Part shown: in pieces, positions 3,024 to 20,707 of the stretch | How positions within the stretch are numbered: the stretch's first letter is position 1 | Layout: every line of letters starts with the position of its first letter | Virus record (IMG/VR): IMGVR_UViG_3300005915_000153 | Location: 1 to 20,707 of that record | Reading direction: 5' to 3' (one strand) | DNA from: a virus | Length of the DNA stretch: 20,707 nucleotides | Notes under the pieces: generated by a model | What the model was told of the DNA's origin: nothing | The model's input: the letters and a program-made list of their open reading frames with translations, nothing else | Databases searched by the model: none | Program-made: the position numbers and the translations under genes

Positions 3024-3526
3024 ACTACTGTCTCCGTTGCTTCACTGTCAATGTCCAGTGCGTGGTCTACGCTTAACTTAATGATTTGTTCGGGGACGAC
3101 GCCAAGAACTTCTTTCCCAGTAATGACCCAAGCTGAATTCTGCTCGAATTCGCTAATATCTTTGATCGAATATTTGCGGTCGTTGTAGACCAGCCAGTCA
3201 TCCACGTTGAATTCATAATCTGTCGTCATGTCTCTGGCGTCCACAATAAAGAGACGCGTCCCAGCATCGAATGTTCCGCCATACACAAACTTTTTCCCGG
3301 CGCTGATTTGGCTAATACCTTGCATGGTTTCACGTTGTACCTTGACTGGAAGGACAATGCAACGTTCGACCCGCGTCATTGTTTTAGTAACAGTCTTCGC
3401 ACCTGTTTTGTAATTTGTTGAAGCGGCACCGAGCTTGTAAATATCCACAGTTGATCCGTAGGCCCGCTTTAATGAGTAAAGCGTCTTGCGGATGAACCGA
3501 TTCATGGTGTAGCTCTGGATGCTCAT
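3020..3526 (-). CDS. Head-closure / head-tail joining protein
   Basis: This protein is 168 residues from the ATG that overlaps the stop of the upstream HNH gene (ATGA), or 161 from the next ATG (MNRFIRK). The second start may be the ancestral one, used before the HNH gene arrived. The core is beta-rich: STVDIYKLGAASTNYKTGAK, a basic strand VERCIVLPVKVQRE, FVYGGTFDAGTRLFIVDARD, and FNVDDWLVYNDRKYSIKDIS. A compact beta-barrel of this kind with a 'DWLVYNDRKYSI' strand fits stopper proteins that close the portal channel after packaging. It stands just before the tail terminator, as expected. I rely on order, size and strand pattern, so the exact family is not certain. Confidence 0.6.
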   Translation of the reverse strand: MSIQSYTMNRFIRKTLYSLKRAYGSTVDIYKLGAASTNYKTGAKTVTKTMTRVERCIVLPVKVQRETMQGISQISAGKKFVYGGTFDAGTRLFIVDARDMTTDYEFNVDDWLVYNDRKYSIKDISEFEQNSAWVITGKEVLGVVPEQIIKLSVDHALDIDSEATETVV

Positions 3527-4146
3527 TCATATTCTCGTAAATATTGGGCAGCAGATTCTAGTAAGTTTGGATCATCTTGAAAGCCGCCCAGTGATGCATT
3601 GCAATTCATACAGAGTAATCCTCGAATCGCGTCTGTTTGATGGTTATGATCTACACTAAGCCTCTTACCGTTTTCAGTTTCCGTTTTTCCGCAGATATCG
3701 CACCTACCATCCTGGGCCTTATGCATCCGATCATAGTCTTCCAAGGTGATTCCGTACAAATATTTAAGCTGTCTCGAAGCTTGCGCTTTCTTGTCCTTCT
3801 TAACGCACACTTTACACTGGTGGAGAACACCTTTTCGAGCAGCTTTGTTCTTATAGAAATCAGTAAGCCGCTTAATTTTCAGGCATTTACTGCAAGTTTT
3901 AGTGCTTTCTGATTCACGCCTCTGCAATTCCGTAAACTTGGTCAGCCGTTCCCTAGTAGTTGTAGGTGGCCTCGTCTTATCCGTATGCTCTTGACAGCAT
4001 TTCCTACATTGGACTGCTCGAGCCTTTCGCTTTCCAATATTCTTATGGAAGTCAGTTAAGGGTTTAATCGTCAAACACGTTGGGCAAACCTTTGTATTTA
4101 CAGATTCACTCTTTCGCAGTCGCGCAGCTTTCTCTTTCTTTGTCAT
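3523..4146 (-). CDS. Endonuclease VII-like HNH (His-Me finger) nuclease with zinc-ribbon repeats
   Basis: This is 207 residues from the ATG at 4144-4146, with a G-rich Shine-Dalgarno (GGTGGGG) about ten bases upstream; a GTG at 4164 would add six residues but lacks a ribosome site. Two similar N-terminal modules each carry two CxxC pairs (C21/C24 with C47/C50, and C85/C88 with C111/C114), with shared text such as KPLTDFHKN and KRLTDFYKN. They look like duplicated zinc ribbons. The C-terminal domain is the recombination endonuclease VII fold: YGITLEDYDRMHKAQDGRC, CDIC, VDHNH (165-169), RGLLCMNCN and LGGFQDDPNLLESAAQYL. Key His/Asp/Asn and zinc Cys residues are present. It lies between unrelated virion genes, so a free-standing homing role is likelier than junction resolution. 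Confidence 0.88.
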   Translation of the reverse strand: MTKKEKAARLRKSESVNTKVCPTCLTIKPLTDFHKNIGKRKARAVQCRKCCQEHTDKTRPPTTTRERLTKFTELQRRESESTKTCSKCLKIKRLTDFYKNKAARKGVLHQCKVCVKKDKKAQASRQLKYLYGITLEDYDRMHKAQDGRCDICGKTETENGKRLSVDHNHQTDAIRGLLCMNCNASLGGFQDDPNLLESAAQYLREYE

Positions 4147-4171
4147 TAAATGTAGCCCCACCACAGTTTAA

Positions 4172-7751: not shown

Positions 7752-10643
7752 TTAATAGGATACTTCCGCCGCAGAAACCTTTGCCACCCACCGAACGACA
7801 TCACTACCGCTTGTTGAGTCCGTTACTTCCACACACAAGGCATCAGTGGCGTCGTCGGCAGCAACTCTTGCATCAAAGTCAGTATCGTCAGTGTCGTAGA
7901 GTGTAGTTACAGTGCTGGCTAGAATCGTAGTGGTGCCACCATCATTTTCAATGACTCCTTCGATCTTAAAGCCAAATGACTTTGTACACCCGCTTGTCGT
8001 CCCTACGAGTAGAATATCGAAGGTCCACACGGTATCACTGTGCATAGTCATTTGACCTGCCGAGCCATCGGTAAACAGTGGATACCAGTTCGCAGTGACG
8101 TGGTTAACAGTCGCCCGGACTATCTTCGTTGAGCCTAGAGCATCCCCCACAGCAGCAAAGGTGCCATTGTCCTGGTAAACTTGTCCGGTGGTAGTTACAG
8201 TGGTCCCTACAATACCCACAGAGTCGGATGCAGTAACCTCATTACCTGTGAGTATTAGTTCAGCGCCGTTAAACGTCATTGACGCATCGTCAGCGGCTCC
8301 GAGATAGAGCTTCTTAGAATCAGCGGGGATTTTCACATCGTTATCAAAACGATGAGCGGTCGTAGCTCCATAATCCATAAACCCATCAGCAAGTGAATCA
8401 ATATACTCGTTCTGATCCGTCTGAGTGAATGAGACTTTATTTATAGTTTGAATAACACCATCATGCTCAATTACGAGTGCCTCTTTCGCCACAGTGAGAT
8501 TGTTTGTCACATTCTGAAATACCCATTTATTCCCTCGCGCCGCTACGCCCCAGTTTTGGGTAGCGATACAATCAATTTCACCAGCACCAGCATAAGAGGT
8601 TCCGGAATGCCCATCTGCTATAAAGGAGAAAATACTGTCACCGCTTTGAAGGGCCAATGGCAAAGCCTTAGTTCCACGCGATCTTGTGGTTCGATACATT
8701 CCACGCGCAGCAGCGGTATTACTATTGACCAGGAGCCTCATTTCCAGAAAGGAATTGCTGTACATCCGGAAACCTTCCGTCGTACCTGCGCCGTTAATAT
8801 CCACCAGATACTCACAGTTAGAAGTTCCAGGGCCGATCCCTACGTTACCTGTAAAGGAAGTATTTCCCGAGCCTACTGCGCGAGGATTGATTAGTAGATC
8901 GGTTCCATTGTACGTGAGGGAAGCATCATCACCGCCTCCGAGGTAAAGCTTCTTTGTATCATCGGGAATCTTCACGTCTGCGAGGAAGCGGTGAGCGGTT
9001 GTTGCCCCATAATCAACAAAGCCGTCGTTGAGCGAATCAATATACTCATTACCGTCAACCTGCGTGAAGATGACTTTGTCTGTTGCTAGAATCTGACCCG
9101 TGTTAGTGATCGTTGTCCCCACTAACTGCACGGTGTCAGCCGCACAGACTGTGTTTCCAGTGATTATTAGCTCGCTGCCGTTAAATGTTACTGACGCATC
9201 ATCACCGGCTCCAAAGTAGAGCTTCTTATCATCAACTTTGATCGATACATTGCCTTCATCATAGGCGATTATGTTTGTGTTAGCACCGTTGTCAACTATG
9301 TCATTTGTGCAATCATAAAACTCATTCATTATGAGGCTGTTATCATTTACATCTTCGCCCGCGACCAAGCTAATTCCTACGGGGCAAGTTATAAACTTAT
9401 TATCTTGCACAGTGTTTCTTGCTACAACGCCCAATGACCCGCCATTTTCAGGGTTGAACGCGACCCCGATTGTAAAGTTCTCGAAAGTATTGTCCCTAAT
9501 AATGCAGTCCGTCGTGTTATAACTTGCTCCAATATTGCTGCCTATAAAGATAATTCCCGGAACTATGCCAGAACCGTAAAAAACATTGTCCGCGACCAAA
9601 GCGTAGCGGACGTGGTCATAGTAGCAACCTATGTCCAATGTAGAGTCATTTAAGGTATTTCCTCTGGCTATCAAACCATCACCTGAGCACAGCAATAGTC
9701 CCCGGTTACCAATACCTGTGACGATATTATTGATTGCTGATGAGTAGTCCCCGCATATCCTAATTCCACGGACCCCACTGTTAACCCTACAATTACTGAT
9801 TGTAGAGTTAAGCATTGGTGTGTTAAATCCGATGGCACTCCAATCATTATTGGCAGCGATTATGTTATCAAATAATATTCCGGAAGAGTTCGTAGCGTAC
9901 ACGCCGTTACTGTCAGAGTGCTCTATCCAGCAATCTTGAACTTTACAGTCAGTGCAGCCAGTGAACAAAATTAAGTCAGAACTGCTACCACCACCACTTC
10001 CACCAACTATGTATAAATCCTTAACTGTGCAGCCGACCTTGGTTGTGGCACTTATTGCGTCAAAGGTCTGGCCCGTTGGCAGGGCCGATAGAGTTGTATC
10101 CGCACCACCTGACCAAGATATAACTTCACCATTATTGTAATTCGCTGGGTCGCTAAGGGTAACATACCAAATAACTTTGTTTGTTAAGTCAACTTTAACA
10201 CAAGTGGCAGTAAAGCCAGTAGTGTCCCCTGACAAAGTTTCTCCATCGGCCGGAACACCTGTTACTGCGGTGTAAGTAGCTCTATTAGTGGCTAACAATC
10301 TTGTCCCTTTGCCAGAACCGCGAAGCACAACATTATCATCTAGTACAATCCCAGCAGTTAGATCATAGTCGCCTGCTGGTAAGTATACTTCCCCGCCATA
10401 ACTGCCCAATGCGGCAATTGCAGCAATGATACCTGCGGACGTAAAATCTGCCACGGTAATACTCTTTGCCGGGATATCAAACCCATTCGCACTTAATTTC
10501 TTGGTGGTGTCATCCCAGTGAAGTTCTGTAGTCTCGCTATGTACCCAACTTGGATCAGTCCAGAAGAGAAGTTGGCCGTTAGCCGTTCCGGCTTCAATGA
10601 AGCTTTTAGAAAGGCCTGTAGGTTCTGTATACTCTAATCGCAT
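7752..10643 (-). CDS. Tailspike/fibre protein with beta-helix domain and internal repeats
   Basis: This is 963 residues from the ATG at 10641-10643, with GGAG six bases upstream; a TTG at 10655 would add four residues. The start (MRLEYTEPTGLSKSFIEAGT) is a likely attachment region with WDDTTKKLSANGF. Residues about 60-470 look like a pectate-lyase right-handed beta-helix: GGEVYLPAGDYDLTAGIVLD, GSGKGTRL, then many short turns with Asn/Gly/Asp and Ile/Val strands such as ISNCRVNSGVRGIRICGD. Residues about 475-850 hold degenerate copies of 'KKLYxGxxDDASxTFNGxELI' and 'EYIDSLxDGFxDYGATTAHR'. The C-terminus is a beta-rich domain with Cys near the end. Such proteins bind and often cleave surface polysaccharide. 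Lying between portal and adaptor genes is unusual for a tailspike and may mean a head or neck fibre. Confidence 0.8.
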   Translation of the reverse strand: MRLEYTEPTGLSKSFIEAGTANGQLLFWTDPSWVHSETTELHWDDTTKKLSANGFDIPAKSITVADFTSAGIIAAIAALGSYGGEVYLPAGDYDLTAGIVLDDNVVLRGSGKGTRLLATNRATYTAVTGVPADGETLSGDTTGFTATCVKVDLTNKVIWYVTLSDPANYNNGEVISWSGGADTTLSALPTGQTFDAISATTKVGCTVKDLYIVGGSGGGSSSDLILFTGCTDCKVQDCWIEHSDSNGVYATNSSGILFDNIIAANNDWSAIGFNTPMLNSTISNCRVNSGVRGIRICGDYSSAINNIVTGIGNRGLLLCSGDGLIARGNTLNDSTLDIGCYYDHVRYALVADNVFYGSGIVPGIIFIGSNIGASYNTTDCIIRDNTFENFTIGVAFNPENGGSLGVVARNTVQDNKFITCPVGISLVAGEDVNDNSLIMNEFYDCTNDIVDNGANTNIIAYDEGNVSIKVDDKKLYFGAGDDASVTFNGSELIITGNTVCAADTVQLVGTTITNTGQILATDKVIFTQVDGNEYIDSLNDGFVDYGATTAHRFLADVKIPDDTKKLYLGGGDDASLTYNGTDLLINPRAVGSGNTSFTGNVGIGPGTSNCEYLVDINGAGTTEGFRMYSNSFLEMRLLVNSNTAAARGMYRTTRSRGTKALPLALQSGDSIFSFIADGHSGTSYAGAGEIDCIATQNWGVAARGNKWVFQNVTNNLTVAKEALVIEHDGVIQTINKVSFTQTDQNEYIDSLADGFMDYGATTAHRFDNDVKIPADSKKLYLGAADDASMTFNGAELILTGNEVTASDSVGIVGTTVTTTGQVYQDNGTFAAVGDALGSTKIVRATVNHVTANWYPLFTDGSAGQMTMHSDTVWTFDILLVGTTSGCTKSFGFKIEGVIENDGGTTTILASTVTTLYDTDDTDFDARVAADDATDALCVEVTDSTSGSDVVRWVAKVSAAEVSY
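8182..9230 (-). repeat. Degenerate internal repeats of the tailspike gene
   Basis: Three diverged copies encode KKLYxGxxDDASxTFNGxELI with a following GTTxTxTGQ strand. Two of them (near 8182-8439 and 8875-9076) also carry the NEYIDSLxDGFxDYGATTAHR part. The copies differ at many synonymous sites, so the repeat is old and kept at protein level. Confidence 0.75.
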
Positions 10644-10644
10644 G

Positions 10645-10980
10645 TTATACTCCAATCCAAGCTAAGTCTTGAGCAGCGGCGTCCGAGATAGCATACAACG
10701 CCGAAGTATCGTCAATAGGTACTCGTATTGATGCCCCTGGCAGTAGTGGGAAGCCACCAGTATCCACGGCACTGTTGGCTGTCACTTTTGCGTCACCGAT
10801 CCAAACTGTGTTTGTATTTGGGACTGCGTCATCTGGTCCGGGTGTGCGGAGCACAACGCCTCGCATATACCTTAAACTTTGTGGAGTGATCTGAACGGCA
10901 GCCGCACCTACAACAGTGTGTCCCTGGTCAATCCCAGCCGTGGGGGATACTTCTTTCTGAATATTTACTGGCTGCGTCAT
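10645..10980 (-). CDS. Small beta-rich virion protein
   Basis: This 111-residue protein sits between portal and tailspike genes. Its ATG has GGAG eight bases upstream; that Shine-Dalgarno overlaps the portal stop, and its own TAA overlaps the ribosome site of the tailspike. It begins MTQPVNIQKEVSPTAGIDQG and continues VQITPQSLRYMRGVVLRTPG, NTNTVWIGDAKVTANSAVDT, GGFPLLPGASIRVPIDDTSA and LYAISDAAAQDLAWIGV. This alternation of strands with 'VWIGDxxVT...GGFPLLPGxSIxVPI...LYAI' is common in small beta-sandwich phage structural proteins of unknown exact place. Its coupling to the tailspike suggests they form one appendage. No enzymatic motif is seen. Confidence 0.6.
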   Translation of the reverse strand: MTQPVNIQKEVSPTAGIDQGHTVVGAAAVQITPQSLRYMRGVVLRTPGPDDAVPNTNTVWIGDAKVTANSAVDTGGFPLLPGASIRVPIDDTSALYAISDAAAQDLAWIGV

Positions 10981-13177: not shown

Positions 13178-13888
13178 CTAGTGGGATAAACCCGCTGCTT
13201 CTGGAATTGTTAGTTGAATATTTTGCTGTAGTTTTTGTACAGTGGCCAAGAGCATGTGCTCAATTGGCTCTGGATTATGTGGCTTTAAGTAATTTGCGGC
13301 TTGTCGCAATGTTTCTGGGTCATCTTGAAAGAGACCCAGTGCGACGTTACATTTACTACAGAGCAATCCTCGCACCACGCCGGTTTCGTGATCGTGGTCG
13401 ACATGGAAGTTACCACTGCCACCCGGTGTTTTGGATTTACAGATTTGGCAACTATGGTTCTGGCTGGCTAACATCTCCTCAAATGTTTCAAGAGTTAAAC
13501 CATATTTCTTTAAGACTGCTGCGCGTATTGCAGCTTTTCCTTCACCCCGGCAATAAGCTTGATCACACATTTTACACCAAGTCTTGTGTCCGTCTTTGGC
13601 CTTTTTACATTTAGAGAACTTGGTCAATGGTTTAAGAGTCAAGCATTTGCTGCACGCTTTTTTATTGTGGTTGGCGGAGGCTTTTAACTTTTGCAGTTTA
13701 ATGTCTCGGGGCGACAGTGTTTTAATTCGCTTTACCTGGCGACATTTTCGCCCGCACGCGTTGAAACACATTTTACAGTAACTATTACGCCCTTTTCGCC
13801 CGTGTTTGGCCTTATAAAACTCGGTTACTAGCTTTAACTCTAAGCATTTTGGGCAAGCTTTCGTGTTTTCAGTTTCAGCATTTATCAA
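13178..13888 (-). CDS. Endonuclease VII-like HNH nuclease with zinc-ribbon repeats (second copy)
   Basis: Counted from the TTG at 13886-13888 it is 236 residues. No ATG lies in frame near the 5' end. The only good ribosome site, GAGGAG at 13928-13933, points to an ATC at 13919-13921 in the same frame, which would add 11 residues. Two N-terminal CxxC modules (C12/C15 with C38/C41, C79/C82 with C105/C108) precede the endonuclease VII domain: KKYGLTLETFEEMLASQ, CQIC, VDHDH (163-167), RGLLCSKCN and LGLFQDDPETLRQAANYL. The C-terminus adds about 30 helical residues. The layout matches the other HNH gene at 3523-4146, so the two are paralogues or relatives. It directly follows the large terminase gene, a frequent homing location. 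Confidence 0.88.
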   Translation of the reverse strand: MINAETENTKACPKCLELKLVTEFYKAKHGRKGRNSYCKMCFNACGRKCRQVKRIKTLSPRDIKLQKLKASANHNKKACSKCLTLKPLTKFSKCKKAKDGHKTWCKMCDQAYCRGEGKAAIRAAVLKKYGLTLETFEEMLASQNHSCQICKSKTPGGSGNFHVDHDHETGVVRGLLCSKCNVALGLFQDDPETLRQAANYLKPHNPEPIEHMLLATVQKLQQNIQLTIPEAAGLSH

Positions 13889-16810: not shown

Positions 16811-17554
16811 TTATAAACTCATTGAGGTTATTGTTGCGCGTTTCCAGCCTAATTCTTTGTGAGAGGCGGCTTTTCCTTTAAGAACTCTACGAACAGCGCT
16901 GGGGTCAAAACCATCTTTACGAACTACCGCTTGACTTTCAAAGTATTTAATATCTTCCCCAGTCACAAGGTCGTAGGCCACTACTGGAATTTTTACCTGA
17001 CCTTCGCTTAGTTTCCGCCTAGTCTCTACGGAAAAAATCTTCCCTTTATTGACCTCGCTTAATTTCCGTCGCGTTTCTTTGGAAAGCTTTTTCCCTTTAT
17101 TGGCAATGCTCATCTTCTGCCGCGTTTTTTGGGGAAGCTTTTTTCCTTTGCGCGCCTCACTCATTTTCCGCCTAGCCCCTGCGGAGGGCCTTATGCCTTT
17201 ATGTGACTCACTTATTTTTTGCCGAGTTTCTGCGGAATGTCTATGGCCACTTCCTCCCTCACCGCCATCGGTCATGTTACAAAGACAGCCAGTATCCAAG
17301 TCGCGACGGCCATATGTGGCTATGAAAATTTCTTCAATTTCAAATGCTTTGCGCTCACTTAGGTCCTTATGAAGAATAATTATCTCTGGTTGGATATTCC
17401 ACCTTAACATTCCACGTAATTTGTTATGGAACCTATCCCGCCTCCTTAACTCTCGTAGTTGGGTATGACAATACGCGCGATTACCATGACCTTTACCCAC
17501 ATAAAATGGCTCGCCACCAGGGTTCAGATACAAATAAACGTAAAATTTATTCAT
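16811..17554 (-). CDS. GIY-YIG homing endonuclease with five NUMOD3 repeats
   Basis: I start this at the ATG 17552-17554, which overlaps the stop of the upstream gene (ATGA); the frame is open further back, but only through that gene. The 247-residue protein has the GIY-YIG domain at the start: YVYLYLNPGGEPFYVGKG (5-22), Arg26 in GNRAYCH, ERKAFEIEEIFIATYGR (67-83) and NMTDGGEGG (93-101). Residues 106-186 are five NUMOD3 units of 16 residues each, such as LSKETRRKLSEVNKGK. The end is a NUMOD1/IENR1-like module (VVAYDLVTGEDIKYFESQAV, then DPSAVRRVLKGKAASHKELG, WKRA). It sits between two membrane-protein genes. Catalytic motifs are intact, so it is probably an active mobile gene. Confidence 0.9.
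   Translation of the reverse strand: MNKFYVYLYLNPGGEPFYVGKGHGNRAYCHTQLRELRRRDRFHNKLRGMLRWNIQPEIIILHKDLSERKAFEIEEIFIATYGRRDLDTGCLCNMTDGGEGGSGHRHSAETRQKISESHKGIRPSAGARRKMSEARKGKKLPQKTRQKMSIANKGKKLSKETRRKLSEVNKGKIFSVETRRKLSEGQVKIPVVAYDLVTGEDIKYFESQAVVRKDGFDPSAVRRVLKGKAASHKELGWKRATITSMSL
16997..17239 (-). repeat. 48-base repeats encoding NUMOD3 units
   Basis: Five imperfect 48-base units follow each other in phase with the 16-residue NUMOD3 helices of the GIY-YIG gene. The units differ at many bases, so they are a protein-level array and not a CRISPR. Confidence 0.8.
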
Positions 17555-17871
17555 TCTTCCCCCAGCAAAAGAAGGAGCCAGACGATCCCGCCTGATGCGA
17601 TGCTTGACAAGGTAATTGTTGCAAATACTGTAAGTATATAAGACCCAATATTCATTGCCCATGATTCTGACCACTCGAATGTCGCTGGTCTGCACATTAC
17701 AATACCTGCTGCCAACCAGTGATTCAAGCAATACGGGCAACTGAACAGTTTTCCTACCCACGGCCCGAACTCCTTCGCCCAGTCTCTAATTGGTAAACAT
17801 GCTTTTGACAGCGTTACTGTTACTGAGAGGCTTGCGATGGCCAGAGCCATAAGGAAAATGTCATTCCACAT
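17551..17871 (-). CDS. Multi-pass membrane protein with CPYC motif (DUF1360-like)
   Basis: This 106-residue protein starts at an ATG that overlaps the stop of the thioredoxin gene (TAATG). It begins MWNDIFLMALAIASLSVTVT, a first membrane helix, then a charged loop (KACLPIRDWAKEFGPWVGKL) and FSCPYCLNHWLAAGIVMC with a second short helix. A long hydrophobic C-terminal part (MNIGSYILTVFATITLSSIA, SGGIVWLLLLLG) likely forms one or two helices. The 'FSCPYCLNHWLA' segment after a first helix is the mark of small phage and bacterial membrane proteins of the DUF1360 kind. The CxxC pair could bind metal or form a redox-active disulfide next to the two thioredoxin-like proteins upstream. The family name is from memory of the motif only. 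Confidence 0.65.
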   Translation of the reverse strand: MWNDIFLMALAIASLSVTVTLSKACLPIRDWAKEFGPWVGKLFSCPYCLNHWLAAGIVMCRPATFEWSESWAMNIGSYILTVFATITLSSIASGGIVWLLLLLGEE

Positions 17872-18431
17872 TATATGATGTTGTAATCCGGGGGTGTATT
17901 TTTCTTCAAGTACTTCTTGATCCGTTCTTCCGGAATGACGCCAACGAACTTCTTTACTTCTTTACCGCCTTCGCGAATAAAGATGGTCGGAAGCAATCGT
18001 ACACTCCACTTCTTAGCCAAAGCCCCGTACTCAGTGTAATCCAAGATGTAAACAGCATATCCTTGTGCTTCCAGTTTCTCGACTACGGGATACATCTTAA
18101 TACATGCACTACACCCTGGCGAGGAAAACATAATTAAGCAGTTCTTCTTGAACTTTTTCGCTCTCGCCGTTTGAACAATTCCCGAGACAATTTCTCCTTC
18201 GACTCCAGGAGCAGCGGCTCGTCCGTCACCCTCTGCATGTCCAGGTAGTCGTGCATCAGTTGCACCGCAGTCTCCAGGCGCTCCGTCCAATTGACAGACT
18301 TGCCAGACTTGATCTCTAAAAGAGTTAAACGAACTAGCTTTATTATCTTGCGCCACAAGCACAAAAGTCGCCAATAGTACATACACACCCCCGATGCTTA
18401 ATATAGTTTTTCGCCGCATTGGCTGTCGCAT
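17871..18431 (-). CDS. Exported thioredoxin-like protein, CSAC active site
   Basis: I choose the ATG at 18429-18431: GAGG lies seven bases upstream and it follows the previous stop by eight bases, while the longer frame would overlap the upstream gene by about 49 bases. The 186-residue product starts MRQPMRRKTILSIGGVYVLL, then ATFVLVAQDN, a signal peptide with a likely cut before QD. A Gly/Ala/Asp-rich linker follows (residues about 47-85). The thioredoxin domain has CLIMFSSPGCSACIKMYPVV (CSAC active site), YAVYILDYTEYGALAKKWSV, the cis-Pro loop LLPTIFI and KEVKKFVGVIPEERIKKYLK. It should act outside the cytoplasm on disulfides. The linker region reads better in another frame (see the embedded frame at 18134-18388). 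Confidence 0.85.
   Translation of the reverse strand: MRQPMRRKTILSIGGVYVLLATFVLVAQDNKASSFNSFRDQVWQVCQLDGAPGDCGATDARLPGHAEGDGRAAAPGVEGEIVSGIVQTARAKKFKKNCLIMFSSPGCSACIKMYPVVEKLEAQGYAVYILDYTEYGALAKKWSVRLLPTIFIREGGKEVKKFVGVIPEERIKKYLKKNTPPDYNII
18134..18388 (-). other. Embedded alternative frame within the thioredoxin gene, possible overprinted gene
   Basis: An 84-codon frame lies inside the thioredoxin gene in another phase, starting at GTG 18386-18388 or ATG 18380-18382 and ending at TAA. Its product begins MCMYYWRLLCLWRKIIKLVR and its middle is an amphipathic helix (VNWTERLETAVQLMHDYLDM, then QRVTDEPLLLESKEKLSREL). Codons across this middle are strongly G/C-ending (CTG, GAG, GAC, GTG, ACG, CTC), unlike the genes around. 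That is what a real coding segment looks like, while the thioredoxin frame here is a GGA- and GCA-rich linker. It might be a nested gene, or a piece of foreign coding DNA captured out of frame. No clear Shine-Dalgarno beyond a G-rich run is present. Confidence 0.3.
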
Positions 18432-18439
18432 GGTCTGCC

Positions 18440-18859
18440 TCAGTTCTTTTGCAGATACTCTTTGATTGTGGCTTCCGTAATCCCGCAAGTTTTCTTACCG
18501 GCAAATCTCTTTACCTCTTTGCCGTCAGTCAAGATAATCAACGTCGGGCATCGGCGCACCTTAAATTGCTTGGCCACATCCTCATTTGCGCCGTAGATAT
18601 AAACACGGTAGCCTTGGGCGCGTAAGCTTTTAATCTTCCCCGCTAAACAACTGCTACAGTTACCGTCGATAACTGTGACAAGGCAGTTAGGCGTAAGTTC
18701 TTGTGCCCGCCACAGCTGCGGTTGGTTACTAGCAACGTGCATAGTGCAGACCTGCTGGCCTTCATTGTTGCTTAGTAACTGTACCGTACTATCTTGAGCA
18801 ATGACAATAGCGTATATTATGTAAATCGCACAAGCGAAGGTTATTAGTTTACTTTTCAT
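18440..18859 (-). CDS. Exported thioredoxin-like protein, CSSC active site
   Basis: This 139-residue protein starts at an ATG three bases after the peptidase stop. It begins MKSKLITFACAIYIIYAIVI, then AQDSTVQLL, a signal peptide with a likely cut before QD, as in its downstream neighbour. The domain has CLVTVIDGNCSSCLAGKIKS (CSSC active site), LRAQGYRVYIYGANEDVAKQ, the cis-Pro segment RRCPTLIILTDGKEVKRFAG and an end helix EATIKEYLQKN. An added Cys lies just before the cis-Pro. The two thioredoxin-like genes are paralogues (shared signal cut, QVC in the linker, KEVK.F(A/V)G), arranged head to tail. They probably keep envelope or secreted cysteine proteins, perhaps the peptidase encoded just upstream, in the right redox state. 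Confidence 0.85.
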   Translation of the reverse strand: MKSKLITFACAIYIIYAIVIAQDSTVQLLSNNEGQQVCTMHVASNQPQLWRAQELTPNCLVTVIDGNCSSCLAGKIKSLRAQGYRVYIYGANEDVAKQFKVRRCPTLIILTDGKEVKRFAGKKTCGITEATIKEYLQKN

Positions 18860-18862
18860 TGT

Positions 18863-20707
18863 TTACCACAAATTGTAATCCGGGATGTCAACCCTAGGAA
18901 ATCCGATATAAGCCGAGAGGGCGAAACTGTCCCCTTGACTCAGCATTTTGTTAATTGTCGAGGCTGACGCGAAGAACGACCCTTCCGGGATACCATACGG
19001 TCTGGGACCACCAAGATAATTACCCCATGAGTTCATAATCAAACCCATCGGGTATTTAGCATCATCAACGTATCCAGCAATGAGCATACAGTGGTGCCAT
19101 GGTCGCCGCCCGCGCATACACTCTCCTCGACTGTTGCGATCTCCCATTTGGAAGCCAACATTCGAGCAAACTGCAATTGGAGAACCATTATACAAACAGT
19201 CCCTAGCGTCTTCCCAAGACTCTACTAACGCCACTGTCTTGACAGGGTGGAGCTTACATAGTGGCTCAAGTTCATCAGGCACTCCAACGTATCCCAATTT
19301 ACGAGCCTTTTCACCACTGTACGTAGTGAAATCGTAAAGGCCATCGAGGTACTTTTTCCGCTGCAAGGTGCCGTATTCTTTCACAAATTCGGCAGCCCAC
19401 GCCCCTACGGAACCGTCCCCTTTGATGTTCTCTCCGCCTATTTCAACTCTCGACCCTGCATAAATGATTTCTGTTGCTGCACAGCCACCCCAAATCTCGG
19501 GCTTATTGTGCATCATAATTTGTGTGGACCCAAGTACATCAACCCCTAAACCAAATCCGTCCCCAACACAGTTGTGCGTGGAATATCCATTAGCAATGAA
19601 TGAATGGTCCTCTTCCACGACTAAACAATAAACCGTAGTCTCGGCCCGTGAAATTGTTGACAATTTCTTTATTTTTCGTTGCAGTCCATATTCCGAACTT
19701 TTCAATTTTTTATAGTTTGGAAATGTTACTGCAAGCTTGGAGGCCATTTGTGGGTAAAGTTTCATAGCTGCTTGAGTGGCAAAATCAATCGTCCATGCTT
19801 GGGCGCGCGTTCCATATCGGCTATTTTTACTGATACGGGGATTAAGTTGGCAGTTATTAGCTGAGTAAAACAAGCCACGAATAAGTTCTTTGGAAACACT
19901 TACGCCACTACAAGCTAATCGAGGCCATTTTGACGTTTTTGGCTCACGTATTCTAAAGTGACCGTCCCCAGCGAGCCAACCACGAATACACGCAAGCTGC
20001 ACCTCTTCCGTCGCCGTGAATATTTCAGTCGGTACATTCTTAGAGTAAGTATTACCAGGCACTAACTCTTTGAAGAATGTCGCAACTGCTGTACTTTGAC
20101 AACGAACATATCTTACAGTTGGTTTGCTTGGCACAGAGTATTGCTGGCAAGGAACCCCAAAAATTTCTTCAATAGACGCTGCAATCTTATTGCCAAATTC
20201 AACTTCTAAATGACTAAGGTTAAAATCCACCTTCTGCCAGGTATCAGTCGCTTTGCTACAGCCACCCTCAGCGAGATAAGCCCCTAAGACCCAGGCTAAT
20301 TTTTCGTCAAGCTGAATATATCTGTGGCACCATTTGTGTGATCCTTTGGCGCGAATTTTATTATCTACTGCCTGTGCGTCAGGTAGAAAATCTAAAAGAT
20401 CATAAACTTTGGCCGTTGGTGCTCCGCGATAACCTTGAAGAAAAACTGAATCCTTATTTCTTAAACTCTTAGCCGCTACCCATCCTTTTTGTGTCCAGAA
20501 TAAGTGGTCCGGGGTGCAGGTCACACGCTCGTTGTACCCTTTGGCTTCAACGGTTATTAAGCGACCAGAGTATGATTTCCTAATTGTTCGGGTGACTGTT
20601 CGGGGGTTGCCTAAATGGCTAACTACCTTTTCACCAATTTTGATTTTCTCAATTTTCTTTCGGCTGCCATCAGCCATTGTAACTAACGTGCCTGCGGTAT
20701 AACAGTC
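18863..20707 (-). CDS. Papain-like (C1) cysteine peptidase interrupted by an intein, 5' end outside the window
   Basis: The frame is open to the right edge, so the N-terminal extein is missing except for one Asp codon. After removal of the intein (19571-20704) the chain would run D-CVGDGFGLGVDVLGS and on for 235 residues. The first Cys (19568-19570) is the expected catalytic Cys of the C1 family and also the +1 residue used in splicing. The other active-site residues are visible: His in RRPWHHCMLIAGYVD (about 19091-19096) and Asn in MNSWGNYLGG (19031-19033). The Cys-His and Cys-Asn distances (about 158 and 179 residues) are close to those of papain. The extein has at least seven Cys. It is the first visible gene of an operon with two exported thioredoxin-like proteins. 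Target proteins are unknown. Confidence 0.88.
   Translation of the reverse strand, partial: DCYTAGTLVTMADGSRKKIEKIKIGEKVVSHLGNPRTVTRTIRKSYSGRLITVEAKGYNERVTCTPDHLFWTQKGWVAAKSLRNKDSVFLQGYRGAPTAKVYDLLDFLPDAQAVDNKIRAKGSHKWCHRYIQLDEKLAWVLGAYLAEGGCSKATDTWQKVDFNLSHLEVEFGNKIAASIEEIFGVPCQQYSVPSKPTVRYVRCQSTAVATFFKELVPGNTYSKNVPTEIFTATEEVQLACIRGWLAGDGHFRIREPKTSKWPRLACSGVSVSKELIRGLFYSANNCQLNPRISKNSRYGTRAQAWTIDFATQAAMKLYPQMASKLAVTFPNYKKLKSSEYGLQRKIKKLSTISRAETTVYCLVVEEDHSFIANGYSTHNCVGDGFGLGVDVLGSTQIMMHNKPEIWGGCAATEIIYAGSRVEIGGENIKGDGSVGAWAAEFVKEYGTLQRKKYLDGLYDFTTYSGEKARKLGYVGVPDELEPLCKLHPVKTVALVESWEDARDCLYNGSPIAVCSNVGFQMGDRNSRGECMRGRRPWHHCMLIAGYVDDAKYPMGLIMNSWGNYLGGPRPYGIPEGSFFASASTINKMLSQGDSFALSAYIGFPRVDIPDYNLW
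19571..20704 (-). mobile_element. Full-length intein with LAGLIDADG homing endonuclease
   Basis: The 378-residue intein starts at Cys1 (20702-20704) and ends at His377-Asn378. Splicing blocks are complete: block A CYTAGTLVTMADGSRKKIEK; block B RVTCTPDHLFW with Thr64 and His67; block F VYCLVVEEDHSFIANGY; and block G STHN followed by Cys+1. The endonuclease between blocks B and F has two LAGLIDADG-type motifs: WVLGAYLAEGG (about residues 138-148) with Glu as acidic residue, and CIRGWLAGDGHF (about 239-250) with Asp. So both splicing and homing look intact. It interrupts the peptidase exactly at its catalytic cysteine, so the peptidase is inactive until splicing is finished. Confidence 0.93.

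Follow-up and report, generated by a model that had tools for sequence, protein, structure and literature searches.

Inteins at the catalytic cysteine, histidine and asparagine motifs of a papain-family peptidase encoded by phages

Inteins prefer conserved functional sites, and the homing cycle has been described there (PMC2814812; PMC5050341). In mycobacteriophages they are found at the active centres of TerL, which has seven sites, of a RecB-like protein and of a nucleotidyltransferase (PMC5050341). The catalytic subunit of the V/A-ATPase has two intein sites in its catalytic binding site (PMC2814812), and MCM proteins have four (PMC10643990). Known redox-responsive inteins use an N-extein cysteine at position -3 (Cys-3), a disulfide between Cys1 and Cys+1, or an internal cysteine (PMC3922620; PMC6195587), the Cys1/Cys+1 disulfide being known from Pab PolII (PMC3922620).

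Here we describe an intein in a stretch of viral DNA of 20,707 nucleotides (IMG/VR record IMGVR_UViG_3300005915_000153; the whole stretch is referred to as the window). An intact class 1 intein interrupts a peptidase of the papain family (C1) exactly at its nucleophile, which bears out the main claim of the initial annotation, and in related peptidases the pattern extends beyond this single site to the whole catalytic triad.

The intein and the peptidase that carries it

The minus strand of the window contains a 614-aa open frame that runs off the window end. Residues 2-379 of this frame are the intein, and the next residue is the cysteine of CVGDGFG. The intein (378 aa, CYTAGTLV...GYSTHN; 20704..19571, minus strand, as are all features of this gene) lies in frame between the codons for Asp(-1) (20705..20707) and Cys(+1) (19568..19570). 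Its splicing motifs are those of class 1: Cys1 (20704-20702), block B VTCTPDHLF with its TxxH (core CTPDH; 20498..20524), block F TTVYCLVVEEDHSF (19598..19639), block G NGYSTHN with penultimate His and terminal Asn (19571..19591), and the +1 Cys. Block F reads TVYCLVVEEDHSF and has a cysteine, Cys360, where many inteins have Asp. The first LAGLIDADG motif, LAWVLGAYLAEGG (with LGAYLAEGG within it; 20261..20299), retains its acidic E, and the second, IRGWLAGDG (19961..19987), its acidic D. Pfam matches to Intein_splicing (PF14890, 1.7e-12) and Hom_end_hint (PF05203, 2.7e-09) both pass the cut-off and agree with the motifs, as the initial annotation had read them. Over 190 residues, the intein part of the predicted model resembles that of TliVMA (Z 20.6, rmsd 2.5). 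The insert is an intact class 1 LAGLIDADG intein, far beyond what chance would give. Intein-free homologues, which the initial annotation had suggested looking for, are present and lack exactly the intein segment, leaving precise empty sites; the precursor alignment is clean around the insert, with both flanking exteins intact. Judging from the intact motifs, the intein probably splices, and its endonuclease would cut the empty site.

Asp(-1) is the last N-extein codon and the sole one inside the window. The remainder comes from IMG/VR contig 3300005918_000238 (L002:20-310, MNRREALL...QTIGD), which differs from the window by 2 mismatches over 7842 shared bases and extends past the window end. 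This contig gives the whole precursor: a signal-like MNRREALLTMFGAV, an N-extein ending in MTQTIGD, and then the intein, with the junction between MTQTIGD and C.

The C-extein (235 aa, 18866..19570, stop codon at 18863-18865) corresponds to the catalytic domain of a papain-family peptidase. Its first residue, Cys(+1), aligns with the C1 catalytic cysteine and is invariant in intein-free members, the second His of PWHHCM (19091..19093) aligns with the C1 His, and NSWG (19022..19033) with the C1 Asn motif. Invariant residues in 52 intein-free relatives include the oxyanion Gln100, Cys105, His266 and NSWG286-289 (numbering of relative L005). In a profile of these 52 members, nQGevGSCVsfg aligns with the papain-family NQGGCGSCWAF; in ginger protease and in ficin it is GSC-W that pairs with the family GSC-V. 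The family His and NSWG fall on the C1 His and Asn. The alignment thus has Gln, Cys, His and Asn in papain order, as expected of a C1 peptidase, and the extein cysteine coincides with the C1 nucleophile as proposed. The suggested match to the Pfam Peptidase_C1 family (PF00112) held for the relatives, 26 of the 52 matching at E values up to 0.01 (best 1.7e-8), but not for the C-extein of the window, which alone gives no match to this family.

A papain fold is also predicted for the extein. The AlphaFold model of the precursor, built on a 56-row precursor alignment, has pLDDT values mostly of 86-98 in the C-extein and low confidence in the intein junction loops (95-104 and 462-473). A long helix (476-496) begins exactly at the cysteine, residue 476. 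The best structural match of the predicted extein is xylellain, a C1 peptidase from bacteria (3ois; Z 22.1, rmsd 3.3, 243 residues), followed by many cathepsins and papains; the xylellain match extends from residue 31 to residue 697 of the model and so takes in extein on either side of the intein. The profile alignment, the invariant triad and Gln, the start of the helix and the xylellain match together identify the +1 Cys as the C1 nucleophile.

The phages that encode the peptidase are uncultured. The peptidase family is without a match in PHROGs, and a search of a phages collection returned zero homologues. In cellular sequences it was matched only by a contig from an Anaerolinea MAG and, distantly, by a homologue on plasmid pPLIM01 of Planctopirus limnophila. 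The latter (NC_014149.1, 1184-2218) is annotated as hypothetical and adjoins phage terminase and capsid genes; with terminase, portal, head protease and capsid genes, pPLIM01 looks like a phage-plasmid.

In the clade of the window, the peptidase gene is directly upstream of the terminase and portal genes. The TerL of the window has distant relatives only among named phages, with at most 27.5% identity among the matches listed. A gene for a 967-aa right-handed beta-helix protein (7752-10655, minus; PF13229, 4.7e-12) likely encodes a tail fibre or spike. The phage is also unusually rich in mobile endonucleases: apart from the intein, four ORFs at 16811-17761, 1842-2543, 13178-13888 and 3523-4164 (all minus) encode free-standing enzymes of homing type, of which two are GIY-YIG/NUMOD and two Endonuclease_7 (HNH). 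A scan of the window for Rfam families and tRNA found none.

Insertion sites at the catalytic triad and their distribution

Relatives of the peptidase were taken as the best 80 per scan of at least 424, which gave 136 members distinct at 97%. Within this family all three motifs of the catalytic triad are intein sites. At site a, between GD and the catalytic Cys, nine members carry an intein with an identical junction (the window, L004, L020, L023, L034, L212, L215, L223 and L224). Five of these inteins are 378-382 residues long and that of L215 has 351, while the other three (182, 158 and 130 residues) are mini-inteins without an endonuclease. A different intein occurs at site b, directly after NSWG and with a +1 Ser, in L004, L034, L127 and L129. 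Site c lies directly after the catalytic His, between H and CM, and holds a third intein in L036 alone, with no further relative found. In L004 and L034 a single peptidase (L004:4540-7725; L034:3546-6737) is interrupted twice, at the Cys site and at the Asn site. Insertions away from the three sites were not seen in the members examined, of which 136 are distinct at 97%. By a rough estimate, for inteins that land at random beside any of the 24 invariant residues, the chance that three sites hit three different catalytic motifs is about 0.7%.

Two side observations concern the inteins at NSWG. The peptidase with this intein only in L129 (2369-4300) has a C-extein that ends early at ..GKQPER, possibly through a frameshift or because the copy is broken. 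Relatives of the NSWG-site intein (CFDEQTEI..., L130-L165) are found in many unrelated phage proteins and represent a widespread phage intein family.

The distribution at site a is scattered. On the extein tree the site requires nine changes for nine carriers, every carrier being alone among intein-free relatives. The intein tree resolves two lineages at the same codon, split at 100/100, and the inteins of L212 and L215, which belong to one lineage, occur in well separated extein clades. Intein similarity is about equal to or above extein similarity (e.g. 73 versus 59%). Both LAGLIDADG acids are kept in the intein of the window, and one is lost in L004 (LAKGG). The two lineages, the mini-inteins and the scattered distribution show that site a has been invaded repeatedly. 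Inheritance by descent of a single old intein was also considered and is ruled out by the scattered distribution. As judged by comparison with inteins of other proteins, the pattern is that of the homing cycle at conserved sites.

Export signal, thioredoxin-like neighbours and the redox question

The N-terminus given by the overlapping contig, MNRREALL, is the window's own signal and a weak twin-arginine (Tat) motif. A Tat-like motif is present in 48 of the 124 scorable members with downstream sequence, characterises one large clade of the peptidase family and occurs in most intein-bearing members; the Pfam TAT_signal model (PF10518) matches 5 of the 52 relatives. The Tat pathway carries folded proteins. 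The signal suggests that the peptidase may be exported by Tat after splicing, and splicing is most likely completed in the cytoplasm because of this property of Tat.

Downstream of the peptidase gene, the initial annotation had noted two thioredoxin-like proteins, and both are real ORFs, with Pfam Thioredoxin matches of 7e-12 and of 1.1e-4, the latter slightly short of its cut-off. Protein 1 (139 aa, CSSC; 18440..18859, minus) and the homologous protein 2 (205 aa, CSAC; 17871..18488, minus) each combine an N-terminal hydrophobic segment with a CxxC motif. The two genes are in tandem (17871-18859, minus; mutual phmmer 4.5e-15), whereas most relatives show one. They are followed by a gene for a small DUF1360 protein (PF07098) with CPYCxxHW (17551-17871, minus), conserved in many relatives, which forms part of a conserved block of genes for exported or membrane proteins upstream of the terminase gene.

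It had been suggested that splicing is redox-sensitive and linked to these neighbours, and our results offer no specific support for this. In such a scheme Cys1 would be linked by a disulfide to Cys(+1), or a disulfide would involve Cys360, a possible partner that the initial annotation had not mentioned. This would block splicing under oxidising conditions, and protease activation would depend on the compartment or on the thioredoxin-like proteins. Cys1 and Cys(+1) are present in all nine site-a inteins and Cys360 in seven, and there are precedents in Pab PolII, with its Cys1/Cys+1 pair, in Mma PolII (PMC3922620) and in DnaBi1 (PMC6195587). By analogy, a Cys1/Cys+1 disulfide is possible in the site-a inteins. 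However, Cys(+1) is equally invariant in intein-free members and is fixed by the protease rather than the intein; a Cys1 intein at site a always has both cysteines because the +1 residue is the catalytic residue of the peptidase. The other site-a lineage has Asp instead of Cys360. None of the nine carriers has a cysteine among the last 15 N-extein residues, which excludes the known Cys-3/Cys1 trap, and a Tat substrate has to fold before export, while it is in the reducing cytoplasm. The thioredoxin-like gene is downstream in 46 of the 48 members with a Tat-like signal, in 37/39 of those that are intein-free and in 9/9 of those that bear an intein, but in only 10 of 76 members lacking the signal. 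The presence of this gene therefore follows export of the peptidase and not the intein, and an origin of these genes as partners of the intein is ruled out by the intein-free members that have them. We regard redox-gated activation as very unlikely.

Proposed explanation and comparison with known intein systems

We hypothesize, with high confidence, that the inteins are selfish homing elements in the catalytic codons of a C1 peptidase of tailed phages, that splicing restores the active site and that the protease is inactive until then. In this reading a tailed phage encodes a papain-family peptidase, with a twin-arginine-like export signal in most of its close relatives, in which a LAGLIDADG intein fills the codon junction just ahead of the catalytic Cys. 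After translation Cys1 would form a thioester, the thiol of Cys(+1), which is the catalytic residue of the peptidase itself, would take over the N-extein, and cyclisation of Asn378 followed by an S-to-N shift would join the exteins. One thiol would in this way be the nucleophile twice, first in splicing and later in proteolysis, and the active site would be complete only once spliced, most likely in the cytoplasm and before Tat export. That the precursor would be inactive until splicing can soundly be expected, because the oxyanion Gln and the Cys lie 378 residues apart. The intein would be kept as a selfish homing element whose endonuclease is aimed at codons that are fixed in the host protein, while selection on the protease would guarantee the essential +1 Cys; other inteins in the same family use the His and Asn motifs.

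The remaining alternatives concern either what the intein does for the phage or whether the proteins are functional at all. Since insertion leaves the active site incomplete, the intein could have been co-opted as a zymogen lock independent of redox state, slow splicing delaying the protease until late in infection or until export. Slow phage inteins are known (PMC5050341), and three mini-inteins without an endonuclease have been kept at the same codon. Such mini-inteins are not expected to last long under pure homing, though they fit the loss phase of the homing cycle. Most relatives have no intein at the site-a codon, the nearest neighbours of every carrier on the extein tree include intein-free members, and no clade shares an intein, all of which makes such a lock quite improbable. 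A combined reading is also unlikely, in which the triad motifs have become separate intein niches and the intein at the nucleophile is kept even without its endonuclease, because delayed splicing acts as a removable lock on an exported protease while it is in the cytoplasm.

Loss of activity in the extein, as a pseudo-enzyme with the Cys conserved for another reason, would be in keeping with the weak Pfam score of the window extein and the missing PHROG family, yet Gln, Cys, His and NSWG are invariant across 52 diverse members and the predicted fold is of papain type, which leaves this reading improbable. Asp at position -1 may favour N-terminal cleavage in some Cys1 inteins, and this residue in the window N-extein could indicate cleavage without ligation, by an intein that has degenerated or by an autoprocessing domain of the Hint type (BIL). 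Against this, blocks A, B, F and G are complete, the +1 Cys is present, the exteins on both sides of the cleanly aligned insert are intact, and a non-ligating insert would destroy the peptidase. The chance that the element is of this kind appears extremely small.

Selfish homing into codons of the active site, our preferred reading, makes these codons repeated landing sites for inteins. One small enzyme family with inteins at its Cys, His and Asn motifs, in several alleles and mini forms and with many empty sites, is a clean set of natural cases in which to ask what brings inteins to catalytic residues and whether any of them turn into regulators. The predicted twofold role of a single thiol, in splicing and then as protease nucleophile, is readily testable. 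In this family, moreover, genes for a protease and a thioredoxin-like protein, both predicted to be exported, lie beside the terminase gene, which suggests a conserved phage module.

A literature search of incomplete coverage gave no earlier description of inteins in C1 peptidases or in substrates of the Tat pathway. The host protein resembles xylellain and other papain-family enzymes (MEROPS C1, PF00112) in the order of Gln, Cys, His and Asn and in its predicted fold; it differs from them in that the phage family is without papain Cys22, has no PHROG model and has a Tat-like signal in one large clade. Among redox inteins (Pab PolII, Pab MoaA, Mma PolII and DnaBi1), the site-a inteins share Cys1 and Cys(+1) with Pab PolII, but they lack Cys-3, they owe Cys(+1) to the host enzyme and any disulfide is putative. 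Like the mycobacteriophage inteins, those described here occur in a phage protein, at several sites per protein and in conserved functional motifs, often after invariant residues. The mycobacteriophage hosts are DNA or nucleotide enzymes. The present host is instead a protease of the papain family that in most cases has an export signal, and each of its three sites matches one residue of the triad. The V/A-ATPase and MCM inteins likewise comprise several alleles clustered at functional sites, patchy in distribution and moving horizontally, but their hosts are cytoplasmic ATP-driven enzymes in which, unlike in the peptidase, the +1 residue does not act as nucleophile in covalent catalysis. Inteins at the active centres of phage proteins are thus already known; the novelty lies in the protein that hosts them, in the pattern across the triad and in the mini-inteins that have been retained.
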